From a virus: DNA of 41,717 nucleotides. The stretch is from positions 1 to 41,717 of the IMG/VR virus record IMGVR_UViG_3300042691_033319; one strand, 5' to 3'. Made by a program: the position numbers and the translations under genes. The notes under the pieces are model-generated. The model made no database searches and was not told the DNA's origin. It worked only from the letters and a program-made list of their open reading frames with translations. Position 1 is the stretch's first letter. The number at the start of each line of letters is the position of its first letter. Positions 2,187 through 41,717 of this stretch are shown here, in pieces.

Positions 2187-4415
2187 ATGGCTTGTACTTC
2201 TTATTTAGTAAATATTAATTCTTCACCTTTTGCACCAACATATTCATTTGTTGATTGCTATGGTCAAACTATAACTTTATCAGGTTATTCTTTATTTGAT
2301 AATTTTATTATAAATGCAGACAGTGGTACTCCACCTCCAAGTGCTTTGGGTTTGGTCATAAAAACTCAGGACGGAGAAATTTTTAAATACGATGTTCTCG
2401 ATTGTTGTTACCAGTTTGGTGGGAACATGTATATTAAATCAAATGCAGTACCGACATACACATTCTCGGTTGAAGAAGTATATTACTCAAATGGAGTGGT
2501 TATTACAGGTCAAGGTACTAAATGTATGTCATATGGTAGTGGTGTATCATTTGGTTTTACTGAGGCAATTAGTGCCCTTAAATATTTGAAATTTATCTTT
2601 GATAATTGTGAATCGTGTCTTATAAAATTTCCATGTAACACAGAATATTTTTTATCTTGTTGTTCACCTTGTAATTTATTTAATGTTAAACCTAACTATT
2701 GTTTTGTTGGTACTCAAGGTGATATTAGTGGAGGACCTACAGTAGATAACATTACATATCCCTTAACAATAAGTGGGGTATTTAGTGGTGTGTGTCATAC
2801 TCAACTCGATAAACCAATTTTATCGGGTTACAACATGTATGATGTTGTTACTTATAATACAACATTTTATAACATATCAGTTGACAACCAATACGAGTTT
2901 TGTATTGATTGTGTTAATGACCACCCTTGTGAAATTCCTGAACCTTCTCCAACACCTACACCTACATTAACACCTACACCTACATTAACACCAACACCTA
3001 CTAAAAAACCAATTCCAACCCCTAAAGTTTTTGACTTTGTCAATGAATGTGCGGTAATTACTTTATTCCCAATGGGGGTTGATTGTACAGTGGTACATCC
3101 ATCACCTGAAGGTACTGATGGTGTTGCATCCTTAATAATTTCAGGGGGTACTCCTCCTTATACAATAGTTTGGGACAACGGTAACGTTTCCCCTGTTATA
3201 TATAATTTAGTTGCAGGTTCTTACGGAGCGACTATCACTGATTTTTACGGAGATTTTACCGCAAGAACAACTTGTGTTTTAACAGGTTCAACCCCGACTC
3301 CAAGCCCAACGCCTACACCAACACCTACCACTCCTTACGTTGAGTATGTCATGTGTATGGAAACAAGACTTTTAAAGGGTGATGCTTATAATATAAGTAA
3401 AACAACTTACTATCCTGATGTTTTATTCAATAGTAGACCTTCTTGGATTAGTGGTGATTCAACTAAAAAAATTGTTTGGGATATTTCAGTAACACCCAAT
3501 AGATGGATTGTATCAGCAACAACACCAACTACCTATATTATAACAAATTCAAATCCAACATACCCACCGATTTACGGAGGATGGTTTGTTATTGGTGGAG
3601 GTTCAACAGGAAGTGCAACTGTTTTTTCAGGAGCTTGCGAAGGTCAACCACAATTATTAAATAAAAAATCTATCATGATTGAAGAAATACAACCCTTAAC
3701 TATAAATGTTAGTAAAAATGATACAATATGTGGTTGTGACGGTGGTATAACTATATTAGCCAATGGTGGTAATCCACCTTATTCGTATTCTATTGACTCA
3801 GGGCTAACATATAAAAAATTCCCAATATTTAACGATTTATGTTCAGGAATATATACAGTTAAAGCTTTAGACAGTAGAAGAAATGAAATTAGTACATCAG
3901 TAACTTTACCATTACCTACCAGTCCAAAAACTTACACAGTAAGTCTTAAAACAACAAATAAAACAAGTAGACTTGGTAGTTTAGAAAAAACTGTAGAATA
4001 TTTTACAAAAGTTAGTGTATTCCCTGAATTACCTGATGATGTAACAATAACTTTTGATTTACATCATACTAATATTTCTAAATCATCACCAAAAGAAGAT
4101 TCTTCAACTGTTGAATCGGAATCTATTTTAGATATCGATGGTAGGACTATTAGACCAGAATCAAATACTGAATCAAGTTCAAAAACACTTAGTACTTTAG
4201 TTGGTTGTCAATTAGATACTCTTTTTATCAATTCAGTTTCAGAATCATGGAATTCAATAACAATATCAAATAAAACAGAACTTTTATTAACAACAATAAC
4301 CAAAACCTATAAAAATGAAGATAATGATTGTTATGTCGGTTTAAGTGACGATACATATCAAATAACAAATCTTTCAATAAAAGGTTGTTATTGTTGTAAT
4401 GTAATTACTTCATAA
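2187..4415 (+). CDS. Modular fibre/adhesin with SprB-type repeats and Pro-Thr linkers
   Basis: A 742-residue Cys- and Thr-rich protein. The N-terminal ~245 residues form a beta-rich domain with many cysteines ('CCSPCNLFNVKPNYC'). A Pro-Thr linker follows (about 250-280), then a SprB-type repeat (about 305-368) with the hallmark 'GGTPPYTIVWDNG', 'LVAGSYGATITD' and a closing Cys. A second PTPTP linker (about 368-383) leads to a separate ~115-residue domain. A second SprB-like unit follows (about 505-572, 'GGNPPYSYSIDSG', 'LCSGIYTVKALD'). The C-terminal ~170 residues are Ser/Thr-rich and end in 'GCYCC'. SprB repeats are known from the SprB gliding adhesin of Flavobacterium. Role inferred: virion-exposed host-binding fibre. 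It is encoded between the glycosyltransferase and a larger fibre of the same style. There is no Shine-Dalgarno; the start is supported by the TATTTATA element. The function is inferred from domain type, not proven. Confidence 0.7.
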   Translation: MACTSYLVNINSSPFAPTYSFVDCYGQTITLSGYSLFDNFIINADSGTPPPSALGLVIKTQDGEIFKYDVLDCCYQFGGNMYIKSNAVPTYTFSVEEVYYSNGVVITGQGTKCMSYGSGVSFGFTEAISALKYLKFIFDNCESCLIKFPCNTEYFLSCCSPCNLFNVKPNYCFVGTQGDISGGPTVDNITYPLTISGVFSGVCHTQLDKPILSGYNMYDVVTYNTTFYNISVDNQYEFCIDCVNDHPCEIPEPSPTPTPTLTPTPTLTPTPTKKPIPTPKVFDFVNECAVITLFPMGVDCTVVHPSPEGTDGVASLIISGGTPPYTIVWDNGNVSPVIYNLVAGSYGATITDFYGDFTARTTCVLTGSTPTPSPTPTPTPTTPYVEYVMCMETRLLKGDAYNISKTTYYPDVLFNSRPSWISGDSTKKIVWDISVTPNRWIVSATTPTTYIITNSNPTYPPIYGGWFVIGGGSTGSATVFSGACEGQPQLLNKKSIMIEEIQPLTINVSKNDTICGCDGGITILANGGNPPYSYSIDSGLTYKKFPIFNDLCSGIYTVKALDSRRNEISTSVTLPLPTSPKTYTVSLKTTNKTSRLGSLEKTVEYFTKVSVFPELPDDVTITFDLHHTNISKSSPKEDSSTVESESILDIDGRTIRPESNTESSSKTLSTLVGCQLDTLFINSVSESWNSITISNKTELLLTTITKTYKNEDNDCYVGLSDDTYQITNLSIKGCYCCNVITS
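2938..3023 (+). repeat. Pro-Thr linker-coding low-complexity tract
   Basis: Short CCWACACCTACA-like triplet repeats encode a (PT)n/(LTPTPT) linker between the N-terminal Cys-rich domain and the first SprB-type repeat. The same kind of tract recurs in three other genes of the window. Confidence 0.8.
3287..3335 (+). repeat. Second Pro-Thr linker-coding tract
   Basis: Encodes a run of alternating Pro with Thr or Ser directly after the first SprB-type repeat, so that this repeat is bracketed by two linkers. Confidence 0.75.
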
Positions 4416-4441: not shown

Positions 4442-7400
4442 ATGGGATACATAATTAAAAATACATCAGGATTAGTTAATACAAGATTAACGGACACTGG
4501 AAGATTAAAATTATCACAAGGTAATTTTAATATTTCCTATTTTCAAATTGGGGATAGTGAAGTTTCGTATAACACATTGCCTTCAACTTATAACCAATTT
4601 GAGACTTTCGTTTTAGAGCCGAGTTTTAACGCTCAAAATTCAGCAGGAGCTCCTCAATCTAACAAAGAAAATGTTAAATATCCTTATTATGTAGACGGAT
4701 TTACAGGTAATACTTATGGTATTCCATTTATGGATTCAATTATTAGTCCTGTATATAATAGAGCGGTTATGAGAGGTTTCTTTACAGGAAATACTAGTGA
4801 AGAACCTATTAATTGGAGTGCGTTAACTAATAACCAATACGCAGTAAACTCAAATTATGTAATCCAAATGAACCAACTTACAGGTTCTAATAAAATTGAA
4901 TTACAATATGATGAATGTAATGGTAATAGTGTAAGAGGCCCTATGGTTGGTGATATTATCACTATTTTTTATGACGGAAGAGGACTGGAAGATTGTAATT
5001 GTTCAAATGTACCCATTCCAAGCCCTACTCCAACACCTACACCAAGTTCAACTCCCGCTCCTTGCTGGGAAAATGGATTTGTTGCTAACGTTTATCAAGA
5101 AGTCCAAATAAACCCTGGTGATTACCTTAAAATACCTTTTGAAAAAACGGGTACTATAATAAATGGTAAACCATATTATTCTTCATATTCATTTGGTTTT
5201 ACTATTTATTGGGACGGGGTTCAATGGGTAATATATTCTTTATTTGCTAATACAACATTCCCTTTAGGTTCTACTCCTTTAGGTGAATTCGCTTTCGATT
5301 TTGGAGAAAATTTAACTACAGGATTTACTGAGTGTGGTTCTAGTTGTATAATTTGTGTTAACAAGTGTGCGGATAAATTTTGTGAACAGAATCTTTATTT
5401 TGAATCATTTTTAAGTGGAAACACTGTTTATTCACCATATGACGAGTCTGAATTAGTAATTATTTATTCTTCTGAAACTCAAAGTTGGGTTTTATTTGAA
5501 CCTTCAACTGAAATGATAAATGGGGAACTAACGGGATTAACATCAAATGATTGTCCTATTGGTCAATTTATTCCAACATTTCCACTTACATCACTTGAAA
5601 CATCAGAAGGTTACTGCCCATCTCAAACTTGTGACTGTATTAGATTTACTTCACAAGATAGTGGTGCAACAATTAATTATTTTGATTGTGATGGTGTTGT
5701 ACAAAATATACAACTTGGGGCAGTACCTGTTACCGCTTGTGTTTTTGACAATCAATATCTGATTGTTTCAGGTTCATCAAGTGTCGATTATTGTTGTGCG
5801 ACAACAGTATTTTCTACAAACAAATCAACTTGCGTATTAACATATAAAAATTGTGATGGTCAAATAATCGATTTAACTATTCCAGGTTTTAACTCTTACA
5901 CTGACTGTATTGATACATCATTTACACCAATATTTGACACTGAATGTTTATCGGCAACAATTTCAGATTCTTGTTTACAATGTGGAACTCAACCAACAAC
6001 TTATAAATCACAAGTAACAATCGAAGTAAAATCAAATACAGACCCTTGTGCGTCTCCAACACCTACACCAACACCATCGGCAACTTTTTGTCCAACACCT
6101 ACTCCAAGTAAAGCATGCCCCCCACCTCCACCACCTGATTGTGTTGTGGATACTAGAAGTTGTTATCCTATATTAACTTATAGAATTACAGATGTTTGTT
6201 TTAACACAATTACATTAGATAGACCAACGCCAGACTTTTCATTCTTGTTAGGTCCTTGTTACGCGAGAACTATTATCTACCCACCTTCAATGGTTTCTTT
6301 CTATGATAGTTATACTCCAAGACCTCATTGGAATGATAATGTAATTAACTTCGAGTCAGTTTGTTATACAGATGAGTTTGATGTTAAAATTTGGAATATG
6401 AATATTCCATGGTCTGAAAATCCTGCAGGTCTTAACTCAGCAATAAGTAAGGATTATACTCAGTTTGGTTCTATCCAATACTTAGGTACTAAAGAATATT
6501 TGGGGTACGCTTCAAGTAGTGGTCAAACTGATACTGATTCTGTTTACTACTTCAACTCTTTTGGTGATAAGATTATTGTAACACCTGAAGAACAAAAAGC
6601 AATTGCAATTATTCACTATACTAATCAAACAGTAGATTTTTTCTATGGTGAGAAATTTGCTTTAGAACCATTTGAAAACGTTGATGACACAACAGGTCAA
6701 GCAAGAAACTTTAAACTACATATTCCATGGTTGATGTGGCATAAAAATCCTGATTGTTGTCATGGTCAAACATTTTGGGTTGACCCTCCAGGATTTGATG
6801 AACTTGAATTATTTAAGGTTCATTACATTCAATCTAAGAAGAATGTTGACATGAATAACCCAGGTATTAGATACTACCATCTATGGGATAATAATCCAAA
6901 TGTTAACGGATATCCTAATAGAGTCGGTAAAGTATTTCCTGATGCTAAAATTATAATCGTTGATGATGAGGAGCTAATTGCTGCAATGTCTTATAAATCA
7001 AATAGGAATTGGACTCTTCCCGCACCAAGATTATCTTTAATCACTCCAAATACATGTGGAACTGATATTAATTCTGCAGTGGGTATTTTAACAGGTGAAT
7101 CAGAAACATTATATGTCACATATAGATTAACAAATACAAACGTATTTACAAACTCATTACATAACAATTATTACTCCGTAATTCAAGGACCTAATCTTTG
7201 TTTGCCGTTCTCATCTCAAAATGTCGCGGTTAGATTTGGTGGTGAGTTTAATTGTTTAAACCAACCTTCTCCATACGTTCCTACCACAACAACTACAACA
7301 TTTAACCCTTACACAACAACTACAACATTTAACCCGTCAACTACCACAACAACTACTTCTGAACAAATATGTGGAAAATGTTATCAAATTATTAGAGATG

Positions 7401-10030
7401 GGGATGATGGAACACTTTCATATACTAACTGTGATGGTTCAACGGTCGTAATTAATGTAGGTATTCAATCAGGGACTCCTAAATTTGTTTGTTCTCCAAT
7501 AGAACCTATACCACCAATAAAAATTTCAGTAATACCATTAGGTGATTGTACACCTTTAACTGACTGTACCCCTTGTTGGATGACAGGTTTTACATTCAGT
7601 TTCTTATTCCCTGGAGCGTATGGTGACCCTAATGCAACTTTTAATTTTGTTTTCTATAATAGTGGTAGTTATGAAAGTGGTTATCCTGTATTCACAAATT
7701 CCGCATTTCTTGCAAACATTTTTTACAACGGTGTTGAATGGGTATTTAACAATCTCGTAAATTTCCCTACAAATTCTGTAATGTTTACAGGTATAACTCC
7801 TTTAAACCAATTTGACTTCCTATTTGAGGGTAGTCAATTTAGTGGTGAAACTAGTTGTAAAGAACCTGATAATTTTTGTATGACTGTTACAAAAGATGAT
7901 GGAGGAATTTTAACAGTATCAACCTTTGATTTCTTTTCTATTACGACAACAGGTGGTACTTATTACGCTGAGTTATTTGACTTAGGTTATGATGTTAGAT
8001 TTTCAGGGGGTACTTGGATTCTTTATGACCCTCTAACTGATACAACTATATCGACCTTACCAGGTGTTTTATCAACCGAAGTTCCGATTGGTACTTGGTC
8101 TACTGACCCAGGAACAACAATAGTAACTACTTTAGGGGATTGTCCATCAACTTGTAATTGTTATAATTTCTCAGGAGATTCTCCACTAAACACTGTTAAT
8201 TACGTTAATTGTGATGGAGTTAATTCTGAGTTAATTTTCCCAAATCCTAGTAGTGGAGATATTTGTATAAAAGACGAATTATTTGTTTTAGTTACTTCAG
8301 GAATTACGACAGGTACTTGTGATTCGTTAATTTGTAATCCAATTACATTAAGTAATCCTTTAGAACCATGTTATAATATAACCCAACTTGAGTCTCTTGA
8401 AACAGGTGCTCAACCTCAATCAGGTATTTACGTACCATGGAACAGGTATTTGTACACAATAAATATAGGAAGTCAAAATGTTACAGTAATTGATACAATG
8501 ACAAATACTTTTGTAACAACAATACCTTTACCTAATATACCATTTGTATCCCAAAGTTACAAAACTATTGTTTATAACCCAGACAACTTCTGTGTGTATA
8601 TTAGTGACGTATCATCAAATACAATTCAAGTTATTGATACAACAACAGACACTATAACCGCTTCAATAACGGTTAGTACTCAACAAAATCAATTATTTTA
8701 TAAAGACAATCAAAATAAATTATATGTAAAACCAACATTAACTACTGATTTAGATATAATTGACACAACAACAAACACAGTAATAATTACAACATCAGTC
8801 GTGTTATCTGAACACATAACCTATAATCCAATTAATGAATGTCTATACTTTAAATCTTACGGACCAACTCCTATTGTGATTCAGGTGTTTGATACTATAA
8901 CTGATTCAGTTATAAGTTCCACCCCTACCGCAATAATAAATACTGGTGAAATTTTTTATTGTTCTATAAATGATAAATTATATGCCTCAGACACTCCTAA
9001 TTTATTAAAGTACAATCCATATACTTTAGCGTTAGAGTCAACAATATTTGTTGGTAATAACCCTTCTTTTATAAAAGAAACACCTAATTATTTATATGTT
9101 TTAAATCAATCTATGGATACTGTAACCACAGTTGATTTGACAACAGATTCAACAACAACAATTTCTGTTTCACCAGGAGCCCAAAATACTGTATATAATT
9201 CTACAAATGGTTACATGTATGTAATATCAAGTACTCCGTTTTCAACATCTATCAATATGATAGATGTTTTAACAAACACAATTGTTCAAACTTTATTTTT
9301 AGAAATGCCAATACCTAATTCGGTATCAAATTTTGGTATTTTCATTCCAAACTCAGGTAATGTATTTGTTAACGCTTTTGACAAATTATCAGTTAATGGT
9401 TTCATGATAGAATTAGGTTGTCCTACAATTCCAATTGTGACCACAACTACAACAATACCATTCCCAATTGTGACAACTACAACAACATTCTGTCCTCCAT
9501 ATTGTGATACGGTTTCAGGATTCTACGCAGATAAATTCGAAATTATCGCTCAGAAAGTTCCTACAGGTGAAAGACCAAGTTCTTCTGAATGGAAAATACT
9601 TGACTTCACTGACCAATTGTCAGCAACAACTATCAATGGTTTCATAACTCAAGAAGGTTTAACAGGTAATACATTTGTTATAACGCAAGAGGATTATGAT
9701 AACGCCCCTTACTATAACTTAAACGATTATATTGATTTAACACCACAAGGATTTACAGGTTCTCAATTAAATTTTGGGGATGAGTATTACTTCTATGGTT
9801 CATTAGAAACTGATATTCAAGCAACAATATATGAGATGAGATATAAAATAAATTTAGGTCAATCTGAATTTTTATCTCCTTCAAATCCTTCTTGGACAAA
9901 TGGTAATCAGTCATATGTTACAGAAATTGGTCTTTACGATTCCGACAAAAATCTTATGATTATATCAAAAATGCAGTCTCCTGTATTAAGACAAGGGATT
10001 CAGCAGTTTTTAATCAAATTTGATTTATAA
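4442..10030 (+). CDS. Giant modular tail fibre with duplicated Cys-rich cassettes and a YVTN beta-propeller
   Basis: An 1862-residue protein. Residues 1-190 form an attachment-like start ('LTDTGRLKLSQGNF', 'FQIGDSEVSYN'). After a PTPTP linker come three Cys-bounded modules: A1 (from C208), B1 (from C314) and C1 (from about C397), the last with a 'YFDCDG' motif. A further CDG module and a PTP linker follow. Residues about 560-935 are a unique ~375-residue core ('HIPWLMWHKNPDCCHGQ'). Poly-Thr linkers (about 945-975) precede another CDG module and then A2 (from C1045), B2 (from C1146) and C2 (from about C1238), matching the first set in order. Residues about 1323-1660 are a YVTN-type beta-propeller with repeats such as 'NTIQVIDTTTDTI'. 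More poly-Thr follows, then a C-terminal domain (about 1683-1862) ending 'EIGLYDSDKNLMI...'. Role inferred: long receptor-binding fibre. No signal peptide or enzyme motif is seen. Confidence 0.72.
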   Translation: MGYIIKNTSGLVNTRLTDTGRLKLSQGNFNISYFQIGDSEVSYNTLPSTYNQFETFVLEPSFNAQNSAGAPQSNKENVKYPYYVDGFTGNTYGIPFMDSIISPVYNRAVMRGFFTGNTSEEPINWSALTNNQYAVNSNYVIQMNQLTGSNKIELQYDECNGNSVRGPMVGDIITIFYDGRGLEDCNCSNVPIPSPTPTPTPSSTPAPCWENGFVANVYQEVQINPGDYLKIPFEKTGTIINGKPYYSSYSFGFTIYWDGVQWVIYSLFANTTFPLGSTPLGEFAFDFGENLTTGFTECGSSCIICVNKCADKFCEQNLYFESFLSGNTVYSPYDESELVIIYSSETQSWVLFEPSTEMINGELTGLTSNDCPIGQFIPTFPLTSLETSEGYCPSQTCDCIRFTSQDSGATINYFDCDGVVQNIQLGAVPVTACVFDNQYLIVSGSSSVDYCCATTVFSTNKSTCVLTYKNCDGQIIDLTIPGFNSYTDCIDTSFTPIFDTECLSATISDSCLQCGTQPTTYKSQVTIEVKSNTDPCASPTPTPTPSATFCPTPTPSKACPPPPPPDCVVDTRSCYPILTYRITDVCFNTITLDRPTPDFSFLLGPCYARTIIYPPSMVSFYDSYTPRPHWNDNVINFESVCYTDEFDVKIWNMNIPWSENPAGLNSAISKDYTQFGSIQYLGTKEYLGYASSSGQTDTDSVYYFNSFGDKIIVTPEEQKAIAIIHYTNQTVDFFYGEKFALEPFENVDDTTGQARNFKLHIPWLMWHKNPDCCHGQTFWVDPPGFDELELFKVHYIQSKKNVDMNNPGIRYYHLWDNNPNVNGYPNRVGKVFPDAKIIIVDDEELIAAMSYKSNRNWTLPAPRLSLITPNTCGTDINSAVGILTGESETLYVTYRLTNTNVFTNSLHNNYYSVIQGPNLCLPFSSQNVAVRFGGEFNCLNQPSPYVPTTTTTTFNPYTTTTTFNPSTTTTTTSEQICGKCYQIIRDGDDGTLSYTNCDGSTVVINVGIQSGTPKFVCSPIEPIPPIKISVIPLGDCTPLTDCTPCWMTGFTFSFLFPGAYGDPNATFNFVFYNSGSYESGYPVFTNSAFLANIFYNGVEWVFNNLVNFPTNSVMFTGITPLNQFDFLFEGSQFSGETSCKEPDNFCMTVTKDDGGILTVSTFDFFSITTTGGTYYAELFDLGYDVRFSGGTWILYDPLTDTTISTLPGVLSTEVPIGTWSTDPGTTIVTTLGDCPSTCNCYNFSGDSPLNTVNYVNCDGVNSELIFPNPSSGDICIKDELFVLVTSGITTGTCDSLICNPITLSNPLEPCYNITQLESLETGAQPQSGIYVPWNRYLYTINIGSQNVTVIDTMTNTFVTTIPLPNIPFVSQSYKTIVYNPDNFCVYISDVSSNTIQVIDTTTDTITASITVSTQQNQLFYKDNQNKLYVKPTLTTDLDIIDTTTNTVIITTSVVLSEHITYNPINECLYFKSYGPTPIVIQVFDTITDSVISSTPTAIINTGEIFYCSINDKLYASDTPNLLKYNPYTLALESTIFVGNNPSFIKETPNYLYVLNQSMDTVTTVDLTTDSTTTISVSPGAQNTVYNSTNGYMYVISSTPFSTSINMIDVLTNTIVQTLFLEMPIPNSVSNFGIFIPNSGNVFVNAFDKLSVNGFMIELGCPTIPIVTTTTTIPFPIVTTTTTFCPPYCDTVSGFYADKFEIIAQKVPTGERPSSSEWKILDFTDQLSATTINGFITQEGLTGNTFVITQEDYDNAPYYNLNDYIDLTPQGFTGSQLNFGDEYYFYGSLETDIQATIYEMRYKINLGQSEFLSPSNPSWTNGNQSYVTEIGLYDSDKNLMIISKMQSPVLRQGIQQFLIKFDL
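5011..5062 (+). repeat. Pro-Thr/Ser linker-coding tract
   Basis: Encodes alternating Pro with Thr/Ser between the N-terminal domain and cassette A1 of the giant fibre. Confidence 0.75.
6052..6135 (+). repeat. Pro-Thr and Pro-rich linker-coding tract
   Basis: Encodes PTPTPTPS-type and PPPPPP segments separating the first Cys-rich cassette from the unique core of the giant fibre. Confidence 0.75.
7280..7355 (+). repeat. Poly-Thr linker-coding tract
   Basis: ACA/ACT triplet runs encode three successive poly-Thr stretches split by 'FNP' (TTTTTFNPY, TTTTTFNPS, TTTTTT). They mark the border between the unique core and the second Cys-rich cassette. Confidence 0.8.
9436..9492 (+). repeat. Poly-Thr linker-coding tract after the beta-propeller
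   Basis: Two 'PIVTTTTT'-type stretches lie between the beta-propeller and the C-terminal domain of the giant fibre. Confidence 0.75.
10022..10029 (+). promoter_or_regulatory. GATTTATA variant of the start-site element
   Basis: GATTTATA (one mismatch to TATTTATA) ends four bases before the ATG at 10034. It overlaps the last codons and stop of the preceding fibre gene. Confidence 0.35.
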
Positions 10031-10033
10031 CAT

Positions 10034-10633
10034 ATGAAAAAAACAATTAAGGAAAGCCCAAAAGTATTGGGGTTAGATGTGTCAACCAAAACTATTGGTT
10101 GGGCTTTGTTCGATATACAGACTAAAGAACTTTTGGAGTTAACTCACGTATCTCCTGTTCCCAAACCTAAAGTTGATAACAAAATCAAAGAGTTGATTTT
10201 AAAAAGTGAAATTTTTAGAACTAAACTCTTACAATATAAAGACTTAGGTATTACTAATGTTGTAATTGAAGAACCTCTTTTGAATAGTAACAATGTCTAC
10301 ACTATCCAAACTTTGATGAGGTACAATACCTTGATTACTAAAGAGATTTATGATGTATTAGGGATTGTACCTGAATACATTTCAACATATAACTCAAGAA
10401 AAAATGCTTTTCCTCATTTAGTTCAACCAAATAATAAAGGTAAATATGTTTTATTTGGTTCTCACCCTAAAGATTGTGATAAGAAACTTATTATTTGGGA
10501 ATTAGTTGCTAAAAGAGAACCTCAAATTACTTGGTCTTATACAAAAAATAATACTTTAAAGAAAGAAAACTTTGACCAATCAGATGCCTATTGTTGTGTG
10601 TTAGGTTACATGAAGCAAGAAGGTATTTGGTAA
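10034..10633 (+). CDS. RuvC-like Holliday-junction resolvase / RNase H-fold nuclease
   Basis: A 199-residue protein with the RNase H-fold acidic pattern of RuvC: D15 in 'VLGLDVSTKTIGWAL', E79/E80 in 'VVIEEPL', and D181 and D184 in 'NFDQSDAYCCVLGY'. These match the four carboxylates that bind two Mg2+ ions in RuvC-family resolvases, and the length is close to the ~170-200 aa of the family. The expected role is cutting branched DNA during recombination-dependent replication or before packaging, in the cytoplasm; T4 uses an unrelated enzyme (gp49) for this. It follows the giant fibre gene by three bases, so it is probably co-transcribed with the late fibre genes, and it is closed by a strong terminator at 10660-10690. 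The fold assignment is confident; the exact substrate is inferred. Confidence 0.85.
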   Translation: MKKTIKESPKVLGLDVSTKTIGWALFDIQTKELLELTHVSPVPKPKVDNKIKELILKSEIFRTKLLQYKDLGITNVVIEEPLLNSNNVYTIQTLMRYNTLITKEIYDVLGIVPEYISTYNSRKNAFPHLVQPNNKGKYVLFGSHPKDCDKKLIIWELVAKREPQITWSYTKNNTLKKENFDQSDAYCCVLGYMKQEGIW

Positions 10634-10659: not shown

Positions 10660-10690
10660 AATATCGGTTAATTAACCGATATTTTTTTTT
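10660..10690 (+). terminator. Palindromic Rho-independent terminator after the resolvase gene
   Basis: A perfect 24-base palindrome (10660-10683, centred on TTAATTAA with a CGG/CCG core) is followed on the plus strand by an unbroken T run to 10690. It ends the plus-strand fibre/resolvase unit. The stop codon of the convergent minus-strand gene (10689-10691) lies inside the same T run. On the minus strand no good T run follows, so I read it as mainly plus-strand. Confidence 0.8.
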
Positions 10691-13600
10691 ATATACCCCC
10701 TCCATCACTTATCACCCATAATTTTGTTCCTGTTAAATATGTATGTGAAGCACCTGCGGTTGAAACAGTGTATACCGTAGTACCAGCTCCGAATGTAACT
10801 CCTGATTGTAATGAACCTCCTAAAGAAGCCCATCCATTTAATAATGAATTATAGTTAGTTGTTGATAATGATGTAGAATTTAACATATTAGTCATGTTAT
10901 TTACGTTTGAAACGTCCCAATTTCCTAAATTTTGATTAAAGTTTGTCGCCCCATTAAACATATCAGACATATTAGTAACACCTGAAACATTCCAACTTCC
11001 TAAATTTTGATTAAAGTTTGAAGCCGAGCCGAACATATTAGACATATTGGTAACACCTGAAACATTCCAACCGCCAATATTTTGGTTAAAATTTGTCGCT
11101 CCGTTAAACATACCGAGCATTGTAGTTACTGAGGAAACATCCCAACCTCCAATATTTTGGTTAAAATTTGTCGCTCCGTTAAACATACTAAACATTGTAG
11201 TTACTGAGGAAACATCCCAACTTCCAATTGGTTGATTAAAGTTTGTCGCTCCATTAAACATACTAGACATTGTAGTTACTGAGGAAACATCCCAACTTCC
11301 AATTGGTTGATTAAAGTTTGAAGCCACTTGGAACATACCCGCCATATTAGTAACACCTGAAACATTCCAACTTCCAATTGGTTGATTAAATATTGTTGCT
11401 TGCGAGAACATCAGATTCATATTAGTAACCGAAGAAACATCCCATGTGTCAATTCCTGCAGTACCTCCATTATTGAATACACTACACCCTCGGAACATGC
11501 CGCTCATTATATTTACATTTGAAACATCCCAGCTACTTAAATTGTCATCAAATGAAGAACAAAAAGCAAATAAATTAACCATACTTGTAATTGATGAGAC
11601 ATCCCAAGAACTAACATTATTTATCGTGGTTAAAGATGAACAATTAATAAAAACTCTACCGAGACTAGTTGTCCCTGAAAGATTTAAAATATCGTTTACA
11701 GTATCCAATTCTAAGTTAGAACATCCTGCAAAACCTGCTACACTTATATTACCTGCCCCCAAACTAAAAGGACCCCATTGTAGTACATTCAATATTTTTT
11801 CATTATCTCCACCATTAGGGGTAATAAGTGGGTCAAATACCCATCCTTCAATAGTACCTGTAATTCTAACTATATAATCGCCAGGTGTCAGGTAAGTATG
11901 AGTGGTTTCAGATTGATTCCAAGTTGTTATAGTGTCTGTAGGTCCTCCGTCACCCCAATCCACAACAAAACTGTACGTTCCCGCGCTTATTAATGGAAGT
12001 TGGATTTGATTTGATGGTGTCGACCCTGAAGATGTGTTTGTTGTTCTCCACGTACTTACAAAGGCAACCTCAAAATTAGTATCAATACAACTTGGTACTT
12101 GAGAAGCTCCAAAAGGAACACCAAAAACAAAACCTACAGGAGTTATTGTGTATGGTGGACTTGATAGTATATTATACACATTACTTGTTCCTCCATCCAC
12201 AATATATATGTTTCCACTGTCAACAAAAATACCGTAAGGTTCTGCGATTGTAGGACTTATTTGGATGTCCACCTCTAATGTTCCTGTACTAAAATCGTAT
12301 TGACTAATATATCTAGTAAGAGGTCCCACGATTGGGTTATTCGTGATAATAACTTTATTAGTTGTTGTTAACATAATATCTCCAGATATTGTTCTTCCTG
12401 ATAATATTGGGAATTGAGTTGTTAATACTGCGGTGCTTGTTGTTATATCTAAAGTCACAATCTCTCTAGGTGTAACATCAGTTCTTAAAGCGATTAATGT
12501 TGTGTCATCAATTGCTCCTAATCCAGGTCCAATTAGATTAGGTATTGTAATATCCCTATTGACCGTAGATGTAAACGGTGATAATGTAATGTCCCATTCT
12601 CTAATACCTATTCCTGAACTTACCCACAATTTGGTATTAGTGTGAGCAATGTCTGCAATATATGTTACAGAAGAAACTGGTAATAGTGTCGATGTATTAG
12701 ATAATACATCATATGAATAAACTTCATAATCAGGGGTATTATATAACACACTACATAATGGTACAATTACTTGAGGTGTAGGAGTCGGAGTTAAGGTAGG
12801 AGTTGGTGTTGGAGTTAAAGTTACAAACGGGGTACAAGACCCAACAATAGGAATAATAGGTGGTAAAGCGCAAATACCACTATTTGTTGGTTGAGATACA
12901 GAACAAACATAATAAGTTCCTGGACTACCAAATGTTACAGTATCATAAACGTTATTAAAACAATCATATAGTTCAAAAGTACAAGGTGATGAAAGATTTA
13001 TTTCCCATTCATTATAAACACATGGTGATGGTGTTGGTGTTGGTGTAACAGGTATATCACAACTAACACAAGAAATGTCATATTTTATATTTAAATAAAC
13101 ATTCAAAGTAACTCCCTGTAAATTTTCAGCTACCTCACAATCTGTAATAATAGAAACTTTATTATTAATTGCGTCTATAATAACTTGACCAACTATAGGA
13201 TAAGTTAATAATAATTCTTCTAAAACATCATAATATACGTTATCTAAAGGAAAGTCATTTAAAGAAGTTCCTGTGTAAAAAGATTGACTTTTGGTCACTC
13301 CATCAACAACTGTTATTAATTCAAAAATAGATTGATTTAAAATACAATTTGTATCACCAGTCGTTAAATCATGGAAACCTTCAAGTAAAAGTTGTTGAGG
13401 CCCTTTTCTACCTAAATCTCCTGTCTGAGTAAAATCATCATTACAAATTGTTAATACTTGATATGAATTTAATTTATTAAATCCTTCAATTGTAATATTT
13501 CTAACTTTTATACAACCGTCACCATCGGTAACAGTAAGAGTATATGTCCCTGCAGACAAACTTGTCACAGTAAGACCTGTCTGTCCATTCACATTTGGAC

Positions 13601-15185
13601 TCCAACTCCAACTAAATGGAGGAGTTCCACTTGTTATCAAACCTTGAACCGTACCATTAGTTCCATTTGTCGAATCAGTTCCAACTAAAATAAAATCAAC
13701 AATGGATGATGAAGCTATTGTAAATGGTAATAATTGTTCACAGAATGTTGAATCGGTAACTGTCGCAGTATAATTACCCGCAGTTATATTTGTAAACGTG
13801 TATGAACTTGCGCCTGTAATTACAAGTTGTCCGTCAATTTCATAAGTATATGGTGCAGTACCTCCACTTGAAATTAAAAGTTCAACACTTCCATTATTTT
13901 GATTACAAGTTGTTCCTGTGGTGTTAACAGATAATGTAAACTTTTCAGTATTATTAACAGTATAGGTATGTGTAAATACACAAGGTCCTAAATCACTTAT
14001 CTCTAAGGTATATGAACCTGACGATAAACCATTAAAAGGCCAATTTGTAAAACTACCCGTTACAACATTTTGTAATGATGTTGAGTTGTTAGTCAAAGTG
14101 TATGTATACGGTGGAGAGCCTCCAAATATTGTTACATTAATCATCCCACCTGAATTATTACAAGTTGACCCCGAGACATCTACTGAAACTACAACAAATG
14201 ATGATGGGGTTAATAAAACCGTAGATTCCGTATCGTTACACAAACCAGCATCTTGTACATAAACAGAAAAGAATCCCGCAGATAAACCTGTGAAAGTAAA
14301 TGTGTTTGAATATGTAATAATTGAAAATCCGTTCGACCCCGAATAATAAAAAGGCGCAGTTCCTCCAACAACTGTTACAGTTGCTGAGCCATCATTGCTA
14401 AAACATGATGGACTTTCAGTAATTATTGATGCAATATTTAAAGCGGGTACAGTTGAAACTACAGTACCTAAACTATTTGTACAACCTAATGAATCAGTGA
14501 CAATAACATTGTATGAACCTGCGGTTAGACCTGTTATATAACTGTTAGTACTTCCGTTACTCCAAAGATAATTAAAAGGTGGTGTCCCAGTTTGCCCTGT
14601 AACATAAACTGAACCTGTGGACGCTAAACAAGGTGAATTATTGATTGTGTATAGACCAAAACTGAACGTAGTTGAGGATTTAACAATACATGTTTCTGAC
14701 CTTCCTGTACAACCTCCTCCATCATCAGCAATAACATAATAAAACCCTGCAGGTAAATTATCAAAAATGTAAGGATTTGTTACGGTTGTTCCTGAATTTA
14801 TAAAACCAATAGTTTCCTCATAGAGTTGGAAAGTAAGTGTTCCATAGTCAGTAGATGTTGAGGCGGTTAATGAACCATTATCAAGTCCACAAGTAGTATG
14901 TTGTTCATCATCAATTGATACACACGTACCACTTGAAATAAAAACGTTAATGGGTGAGGAATTATTGAACGGTAAACATGAGTCAGTTAAAATATAAGTG
15001 TATGCCCCAGGTGCTAAATCGGTTTCAGTGTATGCGGAAATAATCCCTGAAGTTGTTCCCGATACAGGGGAAACAATTGTGTAAGGAGGGGCACCACCAG
15101 GTGGTATTGTTATAGAAACAGAACCTAATCCTGAATTGGTACAATCGCCTGTAACACTTAAGTTATATGAAAAGATACAAGACAT
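10689..15185 (-). CDS. Giant adhesin/fibre: seven SprB-type repeats, beta-propeller, PKD and DUF285 repeats
   Basis: A 1498-residue protein. Residues about 1-570 are seven successive SprB-type repeats, each ~80 aa with 'GGTxPYxY', 'LxAGxYxVxVTD' and flanking Cys. Residues about 570-710 are a distinct domain ('[14 protein letters not shown]'). Two Pro-Thr linkers (about 711-721 and 785-805) flank a small Cys-rich domain. Residues about 811-1035 look like a beta-propeller ('[15 protein letters not shown]'). Residues about 1042-1115 are PKD-like ('[16 protein letters not shown]', '[13 protein letters not shown]'). Residues about 1128-1475 are DUF285/BspA-type 25-residue repeats ('[21 protein letters not shown]'). 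All are known extracellular-protein modules; SprB and DUF285 are common in Bacteroidota surface proteins. No signal peptide is present, as expected for a virion protein. It is last in the minus-strand tail operon, and its ATG overlaps the stop of the upstream gene by one base. Role inferred: host-binding fibre. Confidence 0.75.
10846..11682 (-). repeat. 75-bp tandem repeat array coding DUF285 units
   Basis: The AACATCCCAA-type landmark recurs with exact 75-base spacing at 10920, 10995, 11070, 11145, 11220, 11295, 11370 and 11445. After one 87-base unit the 75-base step resumes (11607). Each unit encodes 25 residues of the DUF285 repeat. Units ending at 11145 and 11220 are nearly identical in DNA, pointing to recent duplication. 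Confidence 0.85.
12765..12830 (-). repeat. Pro-Thr linker-coding tract
   Basis: GGAGTTGGTGTT-like repeats (minus strand encodes [14 protein letters not shown]) directly precede the beta-propeller of the 1498-aa adhesin. A shorter tract of the same type lies at 13022-13052. Confidence 0.75.
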
Positions 15186-19117: not shown

Positions 19118-20302
19118 TTATATAATATTAATTATGTTAAAAAATTTGTATCCATACTTTTCAAGGTCTCCAACATTATCGACTTCTCCTAGTCTCTGAA
19201 CTCTCTCAAATGCCGAATTCTTTCCTCTTTCTATAAATACATTAGATTGTATTTCTGCCTCATCAATTACGTTAAGTAATACCTCATTTTTTGTTATTGC
19301 AGAACATACCAACCAATCAGGGGTAAAACCTGATGACTGAACCATAAATAAAGTAGTTCCGTCATTATAGTCGTAATAATCTATATCGTTTATTGTGTAA
19401 GCGGTATATAAACCATCTATTGACGGTCCCCAAAAAGTTCCCACAGATTGTGACGTTCCTGTCACTTGAACCCCTACTTTATATTTTCCCGCAAACCTTG
19501 TTGGGTCAAACTTACTACCCCATTGTTCTAAGTCAGTCACATAAGAATTTGTATAACCTGTGACTAAGAAAGGTACGGTTGTGTAATTGAAACTTGATTG
19601 TAAGTTTACATCACAAAAAGAATCTCCTGTAAACAAATAATCATACATTAAAGGTGTACCTGACCAACTTCCCCCTAAAGGAATAAAATAAGCAGTTCCA
19701 TTTGGGTTTGGTATTGGTAATAATGTTACAGGTATTTGGATTTCTTTTTGTATTACATTTAATCCCCATGGACTTGCTCCTGACATTGTAATAGTGTAAG
19801 TCCCATCTTGAATATATGTATGTGAATAGGACGTTGGCGCGGTGTTTGGGACAGACTCAATTGTCCCGTCTCCCCAATCAATACTGTAGGTTGAAAAGGC
19901 TAAGTATTTTTTTAATTCTAACTCAGAAGTATTGTAAAAATGAACTATGTAACTATTAAACGGGTCTCCTGAAAATAGGAAATTCGTCATAGTGTCTTTT
20001 TGTAAAACAAATCCATCAAAAACAGAATAATAACCAATATCTACAGTAGTTTCGGTTAAAAAAATTGGAACTGTTAGTCCTGTTAATAATGAGTTTCCGT
20101 TTGTTCCTCCTGAAAGTATATCAGTCATTGAGGAGTAAACATACGTATACCCTGTTACAGGCACAGTTGTAGTTGTTGTAGTTTCATTACAACAGAATTC
20201 ATCGGGAAACAATGATTGATTTCCTTGATTATAATCAACAACAAATAAATCGTTGCGGATTACTTCAGGAGATATTTTTATGTAATACCATCTACTATCC
20301 AT
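19118..20302 (-). CDS. Tail/baseplate protein carrying a PKD-like domain and poly-Thr linker
   Basis: A 394-residue protein. A short N-terminal arm ('MDSRWYYIKISPEVIRNDLF') leads to a Cys-Cys-Asn-Glu-poly-Thr linker (about 38-47). A beta-rich region follows, with a PKD-like unit at about 130-200 ('YSIDWGDGTIES' and 'SYSHTYIQDGTYTITMSG'). The C-terminal ~60 residues contain 'NVFIERGKNSAFERVQRLGE' and 'VDNVGDLEKYGYKFFNI', a compact charged segment that looks like an interaction or attachment region. The likely reading is a conserved tail component whose middle carries an inserted surface domain. It is one base downstream of the preceding gene's end region and co-directional with the other tail genes. 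PKD assignment is good; overall function is inferred from position. Confidence 0.62.
   Translation of the reverse strand: MDSRWYYIKISPEVIRNDLFVVDYNQGNQSLFPDEFCCNETTTTTTVPVTGYTYVYSSMTDILSGGTNGNSLLTGLTVPIFLTETTVDIGYYSVFDGFVLQKDTMTNFLFSGDPFNSYIVHFYNTSELELKKYLAFSTYSIDWGDGTIESVPNTAPTSYSHTYIQDGTYTITMSGASPWGLNVIQKEIQIPVTLLPIPNPNGTAYFIPLGGSWSGTPLMYDYLFTGDSFCDVNLQSSFNYTTVPFLVTGYTNSYVTDLEQWGSKFDPTRFAGKYKVGVQVTGTSQSVGTFWGPSIDGLYTAYTINDIDYYDYNDGTTLFMVQSSGFTPDWLVCSAITKNEVLLNVIDEAEIQSNVFIERGKNSAFERVQRLGEVDNVGDLEKYGYKFFNIINII
20160..20192 (-). repeat. Poly-Thr linker-coding tract
   Basis: The minus strand encodes Asn-Glu followed by six Thr codons near the N-terminus of the PKD-containing tail protein, the same linker style as in the giant fibre. 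Confidence 0.7.
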
Positions 20303-39945: not shown

Positions 39946-41717
39946 TTACGGAGTTGGTGATGGGGTTGGTGTAGGAGTAGGGGTTATTTGTTCCATTGAC
40001 TTCCATATATCAATTGCTTTTTGTGCTTTAGCTTCTAATTGTGATAGTGTTGCAGGTTGGGATTGTAATTGACTATAAACAGAATTCCCTTGTGATGTAT
40101 TAGCACCAAAATTAATTGACCAAAATTTAAATAAACTGTTACCATCTATTGAGGTTATTTGACTTGTTTTACTTCTCCATCTATCAATTAAAACTTTAAT
40201 ATTATTTGTTAAATCATCAAATACTGCATAAGGTTTAGTGTTACCATCACTACCTTTCAAACAGAAAAACTGTTGATTTCCATTAAAGTATTGTGATTGA
40301 TTTCCCCAATATTGATTCAAATCAATACCCGCAAAGTTATTCTCGTATGCTTCAAACCCTGTTGAGTTTCCAGATTCAAGGTACAGTGCAACAAATACCG
40401 CGTATTTTAGTTTACCATCGTCTCCTCCAACTGAAACTAATTGTTGTATAGTACCTTTTACAATACTGTAAGCCAACTTTTGAGTTGTCGGTGTTATAGG
40501 TACAAACGTACTATACTGAGATACCGATGGATTACAAGTATTTGTTTGAGTAAATTCTTTACCACCGTTAGCATTAGATGTTACATTATTTGATTGAGAT
40601 ATAACGTTACCATTGGCATCTTTAGTTTTGTCTTTAGATTTTTCTTTATTTTTTTCAATTATAGATTTTAATAAATTATTTTTTAAAGACTGAAGATAAC
40701 TGTCTATTTTAGGTAATGCCGCAACAGGTTGTCTTATACCTGTGAAATTGGTTTCAAATACCCCAGGCCCTATATTATGAGTAACCTCCAAAATCATATA
40801 AGGACCACTAAACATAGGGACATATCTTAAATTGAAGTACATGGTTGGTTGAATCATGGCGTTACCTAACATCTGAACATTACAATTGTAACTTCTATTT
40901 TTATATACGTTATATAATGATAGACTTTGTGTCGCTCCTCCTCTATTTCCCGCCTGATTCGCCATTTGGTTCAATACCTGTAAAGACTCCGCAGTTGCAA
41001 CTCCACTACCTTGACTTACCGCAAAATTGGTGAACACTCCTTGGTTTTGAGGCCCCATATCAACATTAAATCCAACAACTTTATTTGATTTATCCCAATC
41101 GTTTTTATTTTTTAAATCCTCAACTAATGGATTATCGCTAGCCCTTCTTAAATCAAATACATCATTTCGATATCTATAATCAACATTATTTTTTATATCT
41201 AAGATTTCACTTGGTTTACCTCCATAAAAACAAACCAACTTTGCACTTGAATCTCGGTAGTCAACAGACATATGAGTTCCAAATAAAGTATTCGCAAATT
41301 CTAAACTACCTTCAGCTCTTGGTTTAGGATTTTTAACCGCGTCTTGTACATTATAAAAATTAACATATGATGGTATATTCATAACAACAAAATGATTCTC
41401 AACCAAAATTGATTCAACCATTGCCATCATATCAGATTTTGGATTTATATTAGTTAATCTATTTTTTAGTTTATAAATGTCAACCAAAACTTTATCACCA
41501 ATATTTCTACTTGCCCTATCTAACAATAAGACATCTTCAAAAAATGTTTTGGTACTAAAATCGTTTCCTGATATCCATTTATCATTTAAAGATTTAAACG
41601 ATTCCCACAAATCGACTTTAGTTGCTGGTCCTTCTAAATCAGAGTCTACTTGACCTTCCGAAACACTATTAACATTAGGTAATGAGGTTTGTAATTTCGG
41701 CATCAAATTATTAATAA
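39946..41717 (-). CDS. Baseplate hub-like protein with C-terminal peptidoglycan-hydrolase-like domain (5' end outside window)
   Basis: The frame stays open to the right edge of the window; the TTG/ATG codons near 41703-41706 may be internal, so the N-terminus is probably missing. About 586 or more residues are visible. Residues about 190-335 (counted from the TTG at 41706) resemble hub/late-control type folds: 'MIQPTMYFNLRYVPMFSGPY' and 'MILEVTHNIGPGVFETNFTG'. A Lys-rich, Asn/Ser-rich linker follows. Residues about 425-530 look like a glucosaminidase or lysozyme-like domain: a candidate catalytic Glu in 'ALYLESGNSTGFEAYENNFAGID', then 'KPYAVFDDLTNNIKVLIDRW'. The protein ends in a short Pro-Thr tail ('[12 protein letters not shown]'). 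Role inferred: tail-tip hub that locally opens peptidoglycan, as T4 gp5/gp27 do. The hydrolase call is moderate; the hub call is weaker. Confidence 0.52.
   Translation of the reverse strand, partial: INNLMPKLQTSLPNVNSVSEGQVDSDLEGPATKVDLWESFKSLNDKWISGNDFSTKTFFEDVLLLDRASRNIGDKVLVDIYKLKNRLTNINPKSDMMAMVESILVENHFVVMNIPSYVNFYNVQDAVKNPKPRAEGSLEFANTLFGTHMSVDYRDSSAKLVCFYGGKPSEILDIKNNVDYRYRNDVFDLRRASDNPLVEDLKNKNDWDKSNKVVGFNVDMGPQNQGVFTNFAVSQGSGVATAESLQVLNQMANQAGNRGGATQSLSLYNVYKNRSYNCNVQMLGNAMIQPTMYFNLRYVPMFSGPYMILEVTHNIGPGVFETNFTGIRQPVAALPKIDSYLQSLKNNLLKSIIEKNKEKSKDKTKDANGNVISQSNNVTSNANGGKEFTQTNTCNPSVSQYSTFVPITPTTQKLAYSIVKGTIQQLVSVGGDDGKLKYAVFVALYLESGNSTGFEAYENNFAGIDLNQYWGNQSQYFNGNQQFFCLKGSDGNTKPYAVFDDLTNNIKVLIDRWRSKTSQITSIDGNSLFKFWSINFGANTSQGNSVYSQLQSQPATLSQLEAKAQKAIDIWKSMEQITPTPTPTPSPTP

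Follow-up and report, generated by a model that had tools for sequence, protein, structure and literature searches.

Exchangeable Cys-bounded modules at two fixed sites of a conserved protein frame in uncultured, apparently Bacteroidota-infecting phages

A phage protein of 1862 residues carries the same three-module cassette at two fixed internal sites of a conserved frame, and in close relatives of this protein the same sites are empty, filled or refilled with other modules. The gene (positions 4442-10030, + strand, as are all its parts given below) lies in a stretch of 41,717 nucleotides, the whole of IMG/VR virus record IMGVR_UViG_3300042691_033319, which we call the window. We consider it likely that a T4-like phage uses the protein as a tail or baseplate adhesin, whose conserved frame has two slots into which cargo is exchanged.

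Results

Two homologous, collinear cassettes in one protein

An earlier note on this DNA had described a divergent but collinear repeat of three Cys-rich modules, A, B and C, in the 1862-residue protein. All ten of its landmark motifs (WDGVQWV/YNGVEWV, PLGEFAFDF/PLNQFDFLF, SWVLFEP/TWILYDP, PIGQF/PIGTW and NYFDCDG/NYVNCDG) were found where they had been placed, and the positions of the six Cys residues (C208, C314, C397, C1045, C1146 and C1238) were exact. Because a self-blast of the whole protein reported the trivial self-match alone, the copies were compared with each other directly. A blastp comparison of residues 205-470 with residues 1036-1300 gave a single alignment running in order through A, B and C (27% identity, 46% positives, E 2e-23). 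The Smith-Waterman score between the copies was 256, against a mean of 43 and a maximum of 80 after shuffling (z 28), and each module stood out over shuffles by itself (z 13.8 for A, 12.8 for B and 9.6 for C). Copy 1 spans residues 205-456 (5054-5809; A ~205-300, B ~301-394, C ~395-456; supported by blastp, HMM and AlphaFold) and copy 2 residues 1042-1302 (7565-8347; A ~1042-1140, B ~1141-1236, C ~1237-1302; blastp and HMM). The three-module repeat is confirmed, and the two copies are homologous and collinear across all three modules.

Profiles of the modules were built from 13 cassettes. Those of A and B matched each other (hhalign P 5e-5; reversed control 0.04), and that of C matched neither. 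Since A and B are homologous, the cassette is best written A-A'-C and not as three unrelated domains. Cys residues lie near both ends in 18 of 36 modules where 5 were expected, a count taken over related, non-independent sequences; the modules may be domains closed by disulphides. An AlphaFold model of copy 1, resting on an alignment with copy 2 and 11 relatives, reached a mean pLDDT of 88.6 and is nearly all beta; strand lengths follow a similar order in A and in B. Searches of Pfam, PHROGs and PDB sequences with the cassette returned only sub-threshold chance matches, among them a short Cys-rich match to a coronavirus spike segment (Pfam, E 0.02-0.04), which we rejected. Comparison of the model with PDB structures gave no convincing fold (the best Foldseek E was 0.14, and the best VIA Z was 3.9, over 41 residues). 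What the protein offers is an all-beta cassette, confidently modelled, for which no relative is recognised.

The surroundings of the two copies differ. Copy 2 is preceded by a single C-type module (residues 977-1041, 7370-7564), which the HMM for such modules matched at E 3e-22, being itself one of its seeds, and which an independent model matched weakly. Behind copy 1 lies a stretch (residues 457-530, 5810-6031) with a weak C-like resemblance at its start (7.8 bits near residues 452-492).

A conserved frame with two variable sites

When IMG/VR was scanned with the single sequence of either copy, no relatives came up; the N-terminal block and the core of the protein found them. The first 176 residues were confirmed by tblastn in 131 IMG/VR stretches and the core (residues 566-939) in at least 386, with 67-77% identity among the best 80. 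We kept the best 80 of the 131 and the best 80 of the 386, and dissected 90 distinct complete proteins, that of the window and 89 relatives; because each scan gave its best 80, this set is biased towards the kin of the window.

Three blocks make up the frame: an N block (residues 1-190, 4442-5011; ~56-77% identical to relatives by blastp), a core block (residues 532-943, 6035-7270; confirmed in IMG/VR stretches by tblastn) and a C block (residues 1684-1862, 9491-10027; 58-82% identical to relatives). All 90 proteins have each block once and in the same order, and their length varies only between the blocks. The ~835-residue spacer between the copies had been said to include a unique core; residues 532-943 are instead the most conserved part of a widespread family.

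Site 1, between the N block and the core, is rich in Pro and Thr and measures 9-372 aa (median 54) across the 90 proteins. Site 2, between the core and the C block, is poly-Thr in most members and measures 8-752 aa (median 42). Both are mostly short and empty, and the window protein is by far the longest of the set (1862 aa; next 1174). In this protein, site 1 (residues 191-531, 5012-6034; 372 aa) has Pro/Thr linkers on its left (residues 193-205, 5018-5056) and right (residues 537-556, 6050-6109), and site 2 (residues 944-1683, 7271-9490; 752 aa) has poly-Thr linkers at residues 948-972 (7283-7357) and 1667-1682 (9440-9487).

The family lies outside the reference collections that we searched. 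No match to the frame was found in Pfam, PHROGs, PDB sequences or cultured phages, and tblastn with the whole protein, the N block, a relative's cassette, the C modules or the propeller described below found nothing in 50,697 phage records. The frame core was likewise absent from 84,980 bacterial and archaeal species genomes, and a search of bacterial and archaeal genomes with the cassette found nothing. In Foldseek and VIA, a structural model of the frame gave only weak matches to phage virion proteins (best Z 7.5 to the SPO1 capsid and 6.8 to the crAss001 tail), which we set aside because the pLDDT of the model was only 59.

Different cargo occupies the same sites

Which modules sit at the two sites? 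Among the 89 relatives, 12 carry the cassette, each in a single copy and always at site 2. The window protein, from one metagenomic contig, is the only one of the 90 with a cassette at both sites, or with any cassette at site 1. No cassette was found in the other genes of the fetched loci. The remaining cargo comprises C modules on their own, a related module G and a short module E; the window adds a YVTN propeller. C modules occur at site 1 in L015 and L163 (relatives are named here by locus) and at site 2 in L003 and L101, and both C and G modules are present in neighbouring genes as well. In parallel to the window, the frame proteins of L056 and L131 each have an E module at site 1 and another at site 2. 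Site 1 of L163 holds a 251-aa insert made of two different C modules in series with a Pro/Thr linker between them.

The YVTN-type beta-propeller of the window follows copy 2 (residues 1310-1660, 8369-9421). Residues 1338-1493 match PDB 1l0q (E 6.7e-19), and TIGR02276 repeats pass the curated cut-off (35.5 bits against 27.85). PDB 1l0q is the YVTN beta-propeller of an archaeal surface-layer protein, whereas here the propeller is one cargo module of a phage protein. Propeller modules are also found in other genes of the same phage group. That of the window is 37% identical to one in the L059 homologue of another window ORF (10689-15185), where it is flanked by Pro/Thr and not by poly-Thr linkers.

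At site 2 of L082 (residues 630-777 of the frame protein), a 74-aa unit of linker plus G module stands in tandem, with 221 of 222 bases identical. This is either a very recent duplication or an effect of assembly.

Cassettes are exchanged between frames, with breakpoints in the linkers

Well-supported branches of the frame tree force the cassette through at least 4-5 changes of state, in a count that does not tell gain from loss. Cassette and frame identities are discordant. Frames that are 87% identical (L015/L018) or 83% identical (L057/L111) hold cassettes at 28% and 30% identity, and frames that are 74% identical (L018/L057) hold cassettes at 75%. Filled and empty sites occur at even closer range: the frames of L111, with a cassette, and L112, without one, are 93% identical, and the two sequences diverge inside TTTTTT linkers, with ACAACCACAACAAC on either side of the cassette. 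Comparison with fibres of related phages, which the earlier note had proposed, thus found the cassette present, absent or replaced between close frames (12 carriers among 89 relatives). Across the family a conserved anchor is combined with exchangeable modules, at fixed sites and with discordant identities of frame and cassette.

Thr runs within a gene share synonymous codons slightly more often than expected (0.598 against a shuffle mean of 0.560, with none of 200 shuffles as high), a small effect in sequences that are related and not independent. This likeness of Thr codons fits recombination through linker DNA and may reflect it.

Genomic setting

The immediate neighbours of the frame gene are a fibre-like gene with SprB-like repeats and Pro/Thr linkers (2187-4415, + strand), homologues of which usually lie just upstream of the frame gene, and a RuvC-like gene immediately downstream (10034-10633, + strand). 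RuvC-like homologues lie directly downstream of the frame gene in 80 of 87 cases, in loci with the frame gene. Homologues of baseplate wedge proteins (phrog_219, phrog_261 and phrog_43) are encoded in the same window, 18-20 kb from the frame gene. The closest relatives of the wedge protein are an uncultured huge phage (29%) and then, as the closest cultured ones, Flavobacterium phages (26%). The window also encodes a DnaB-type helicase with matches to helicases of T4-like phages. SprB repeats, familiar from gliding adhesins of Bacteroidota, are carried by fibre-like proteins of the window, those of the neighbouring fibre genes included.

Most loci have a strongly conserved gene (1191-2171 in the window, + strand; phrog_4417) that precedes the frame gene by ~2.5-3 kb. 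From its DxD-like motif HDADIIF it might be a glycosyltransferase acting on the Thr/Pro linkers, a reading for which Pfam, NCBIfam and PDB sequences gave no support. On the minus strand, the ORF at 10689-15185 encodes a protein of 1498 aa in which SprB repeats and Pro/Thr linkers occur together with a DUF285 repeat domain; the homologue in L059 carries a C-terminal YVTN propeller instead. The same poly-Thr or Pro/Thr linkers also occur in the products of 19118-20302 (- strand), 39946-41706 (- strand) and 2187-4415 (+ strand).

Discussion

How did one gene come to hold two cassettes? By identity, copy 1 is closest to the cassette of L067 (32-33%) and copy 2 to that of L033 (31%). As the copies are as like the cassettes of other phages as they are like each other, separate acquisition is favoured, and on these comparisons two separate acquisitions from a diversified pool would more likely explain the gene than a recent duplication. 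We think it unlikely that an ancestor copied the cassette within the gene, from one site to the other in either direction, and that the copies then diverged to 27%. Such a copy would readily place both cassettes in one gene in the same A-B-C order, and duplication of a linker with its module is known within site 2 of L082. The cassette tree, which is poorly resolved and has both window copies on long branches, does not unite them, yet does not reject their forced joint clade either (AU p 0.32). Against a copying event, however, the two are no closer mutually than to cassettes of other phages, and their flanks differ, with a C module before copy 2 and other sequence after copy 1. Nine proteins are nearest to that of the window in the frame tree, with up to 78% frame identity, and none has a cassette. 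As cassettes can be 75% identical in frames that are 74% identical, the copies, at 27%, have also diverged far more than the frame has within its clade. The earlier note had proposed that a whole cassette, bordered by low-complexity linkers, was duplicated and moved. Movement is well supported, with breakpoints in the linkers; the comparisons do not show duplication within the gene, as the copies are no nearer by identity to each other than to other cassettes.

Two further explanations appear very improbable. Were both sites filled in the ancestor, with repeated loss of one or both cassettes in most lineages, losses alone could give the patchy distribution, and the counts of state changes do not separate gain from loss. 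No other of the 90 proteins has a cassette at site 1, however, and the divergence of cassettes is discordant with that of frames, which requires exchange in any case; we give this account the least credence of all. Scarcely more credible is an artefact of assembly in which two alleles were joined through the linkers. The linkers are indeed repetitive, only one metagenomic contig has the cassette at both sites, and a length of 1862 aa is an outlier when the next protein has 1174. Yet the gene is one unbroken ORF with the three frame blocks once each and in order, it has a single RuvC neighbour in the usual place, and L056 and L131 also carry the same module type at both sites.

Separate acquisition is part of the explanation that we propose. 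The protein would act as an adhesin at the tail or baseplate of a T4-like phage, with a conserved frame that provides two fixed slots, a Pro/Thr linker after the N block and a second linker, poly-Thr in most members, that joins the core to the C block. These slots would gain, lose and exchange Cys-bounded cargo (A-A'-C, a single C or G, a short E or a propeller), which would also be duplicated in tandem. Each slot of the window phage contains A-A'-C, most likely through separate events, and slot 2 a propeller as well. Recombination via linker repeats is the presumed cause of the exchange. The reading that we find best is an adhesin borne on the tail of a Bacteroidota phage; both its location in the virion and its binding are inferred. 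The ligand would be on the cell surface and is probably a glycan or an adhesin. 'Moraphages' are large aquatic phages with predicted Bacteroidota hosts (PMC12619734).

A bolder version of this model seems to us possible but rather doubtful. Here the protein would be a standardised plug-in system, its two slots each with a linker code of its own, its modules drawn from a pool common to the slots and to structural genes, and the DNA repeats of the linkers serving as recombination sites. If so, the specificity of host binding would change by exchange of whole modules with the frame untouched.

Domain shuffling in phage fibres is already well known, mostly as the swapping of one end behind a conserved anchor. 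Otherwise different phage proteins share movable domains, with receptor-binding and tail proteins as hotspots (Smug et al. 2023, PMC10684548). The usual layout there is a conserved N-terminal anchor with exchangeable domains downstream, whereas in the window frame conserved blocks flank each slot, which is an internal linker, fixed in place and marked by an amino-acid signature of its own. In crAss-like and other gut phages, tail proteins carry BACON domains repeated in tandem; the repeats arose in some lineages by transfer of separate domains and elsewhere by serial duplication (de Jonge et al. 2019, PMC6949934). Our case is similar in having a repeated domain in a probably tail-associated protein of a Bacteroidota phage. 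It differs in that other domains are involved and that, in place of a tandem array, a composite cassette of 250 aa stands at two distant slots. What sets it apart is the geometry: two fixed internal slots with their own linker types, flanking conserved blocks, and cargo common to slots and genes. Hundreds of uncultured, apparently Bacteroidota-infecting phages share the frame, which was not found in any of the cultured phages or protein libraries that were searched. As its slots can be compared empty, filled and swapped, the frequency of exchange, its guidance by linker repeats and the matching of modules to hosts can be addressed by sequence alone.

The ends of the frame protein also weakly resemble the two halves of the attachment domain of P2 gpH. 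A stretch of the N block, TRLTDTGRLKLSQGNFNISYFQIGDSEV, and a C-terminal one, SYVTEIGLYDSDKNLMIISK, align with gpH residues 7-43 and 87-119 in the same order. Profile-profile comparison of the two ends with gpH, in which the gpH side held near-identical sequences only, gave P 0.21 and 0.014. No match to PF12571 (Phage_tail_fib) was found in the window at E <= 10, nor among 43 relatives. Compared with the gpH domain, the putative halves are separated here by ~1750 residues. We treat the resemblance as a possible lead only; the weakly gpH-like ends lie at window positions 4442-4620 and 9900-10027.
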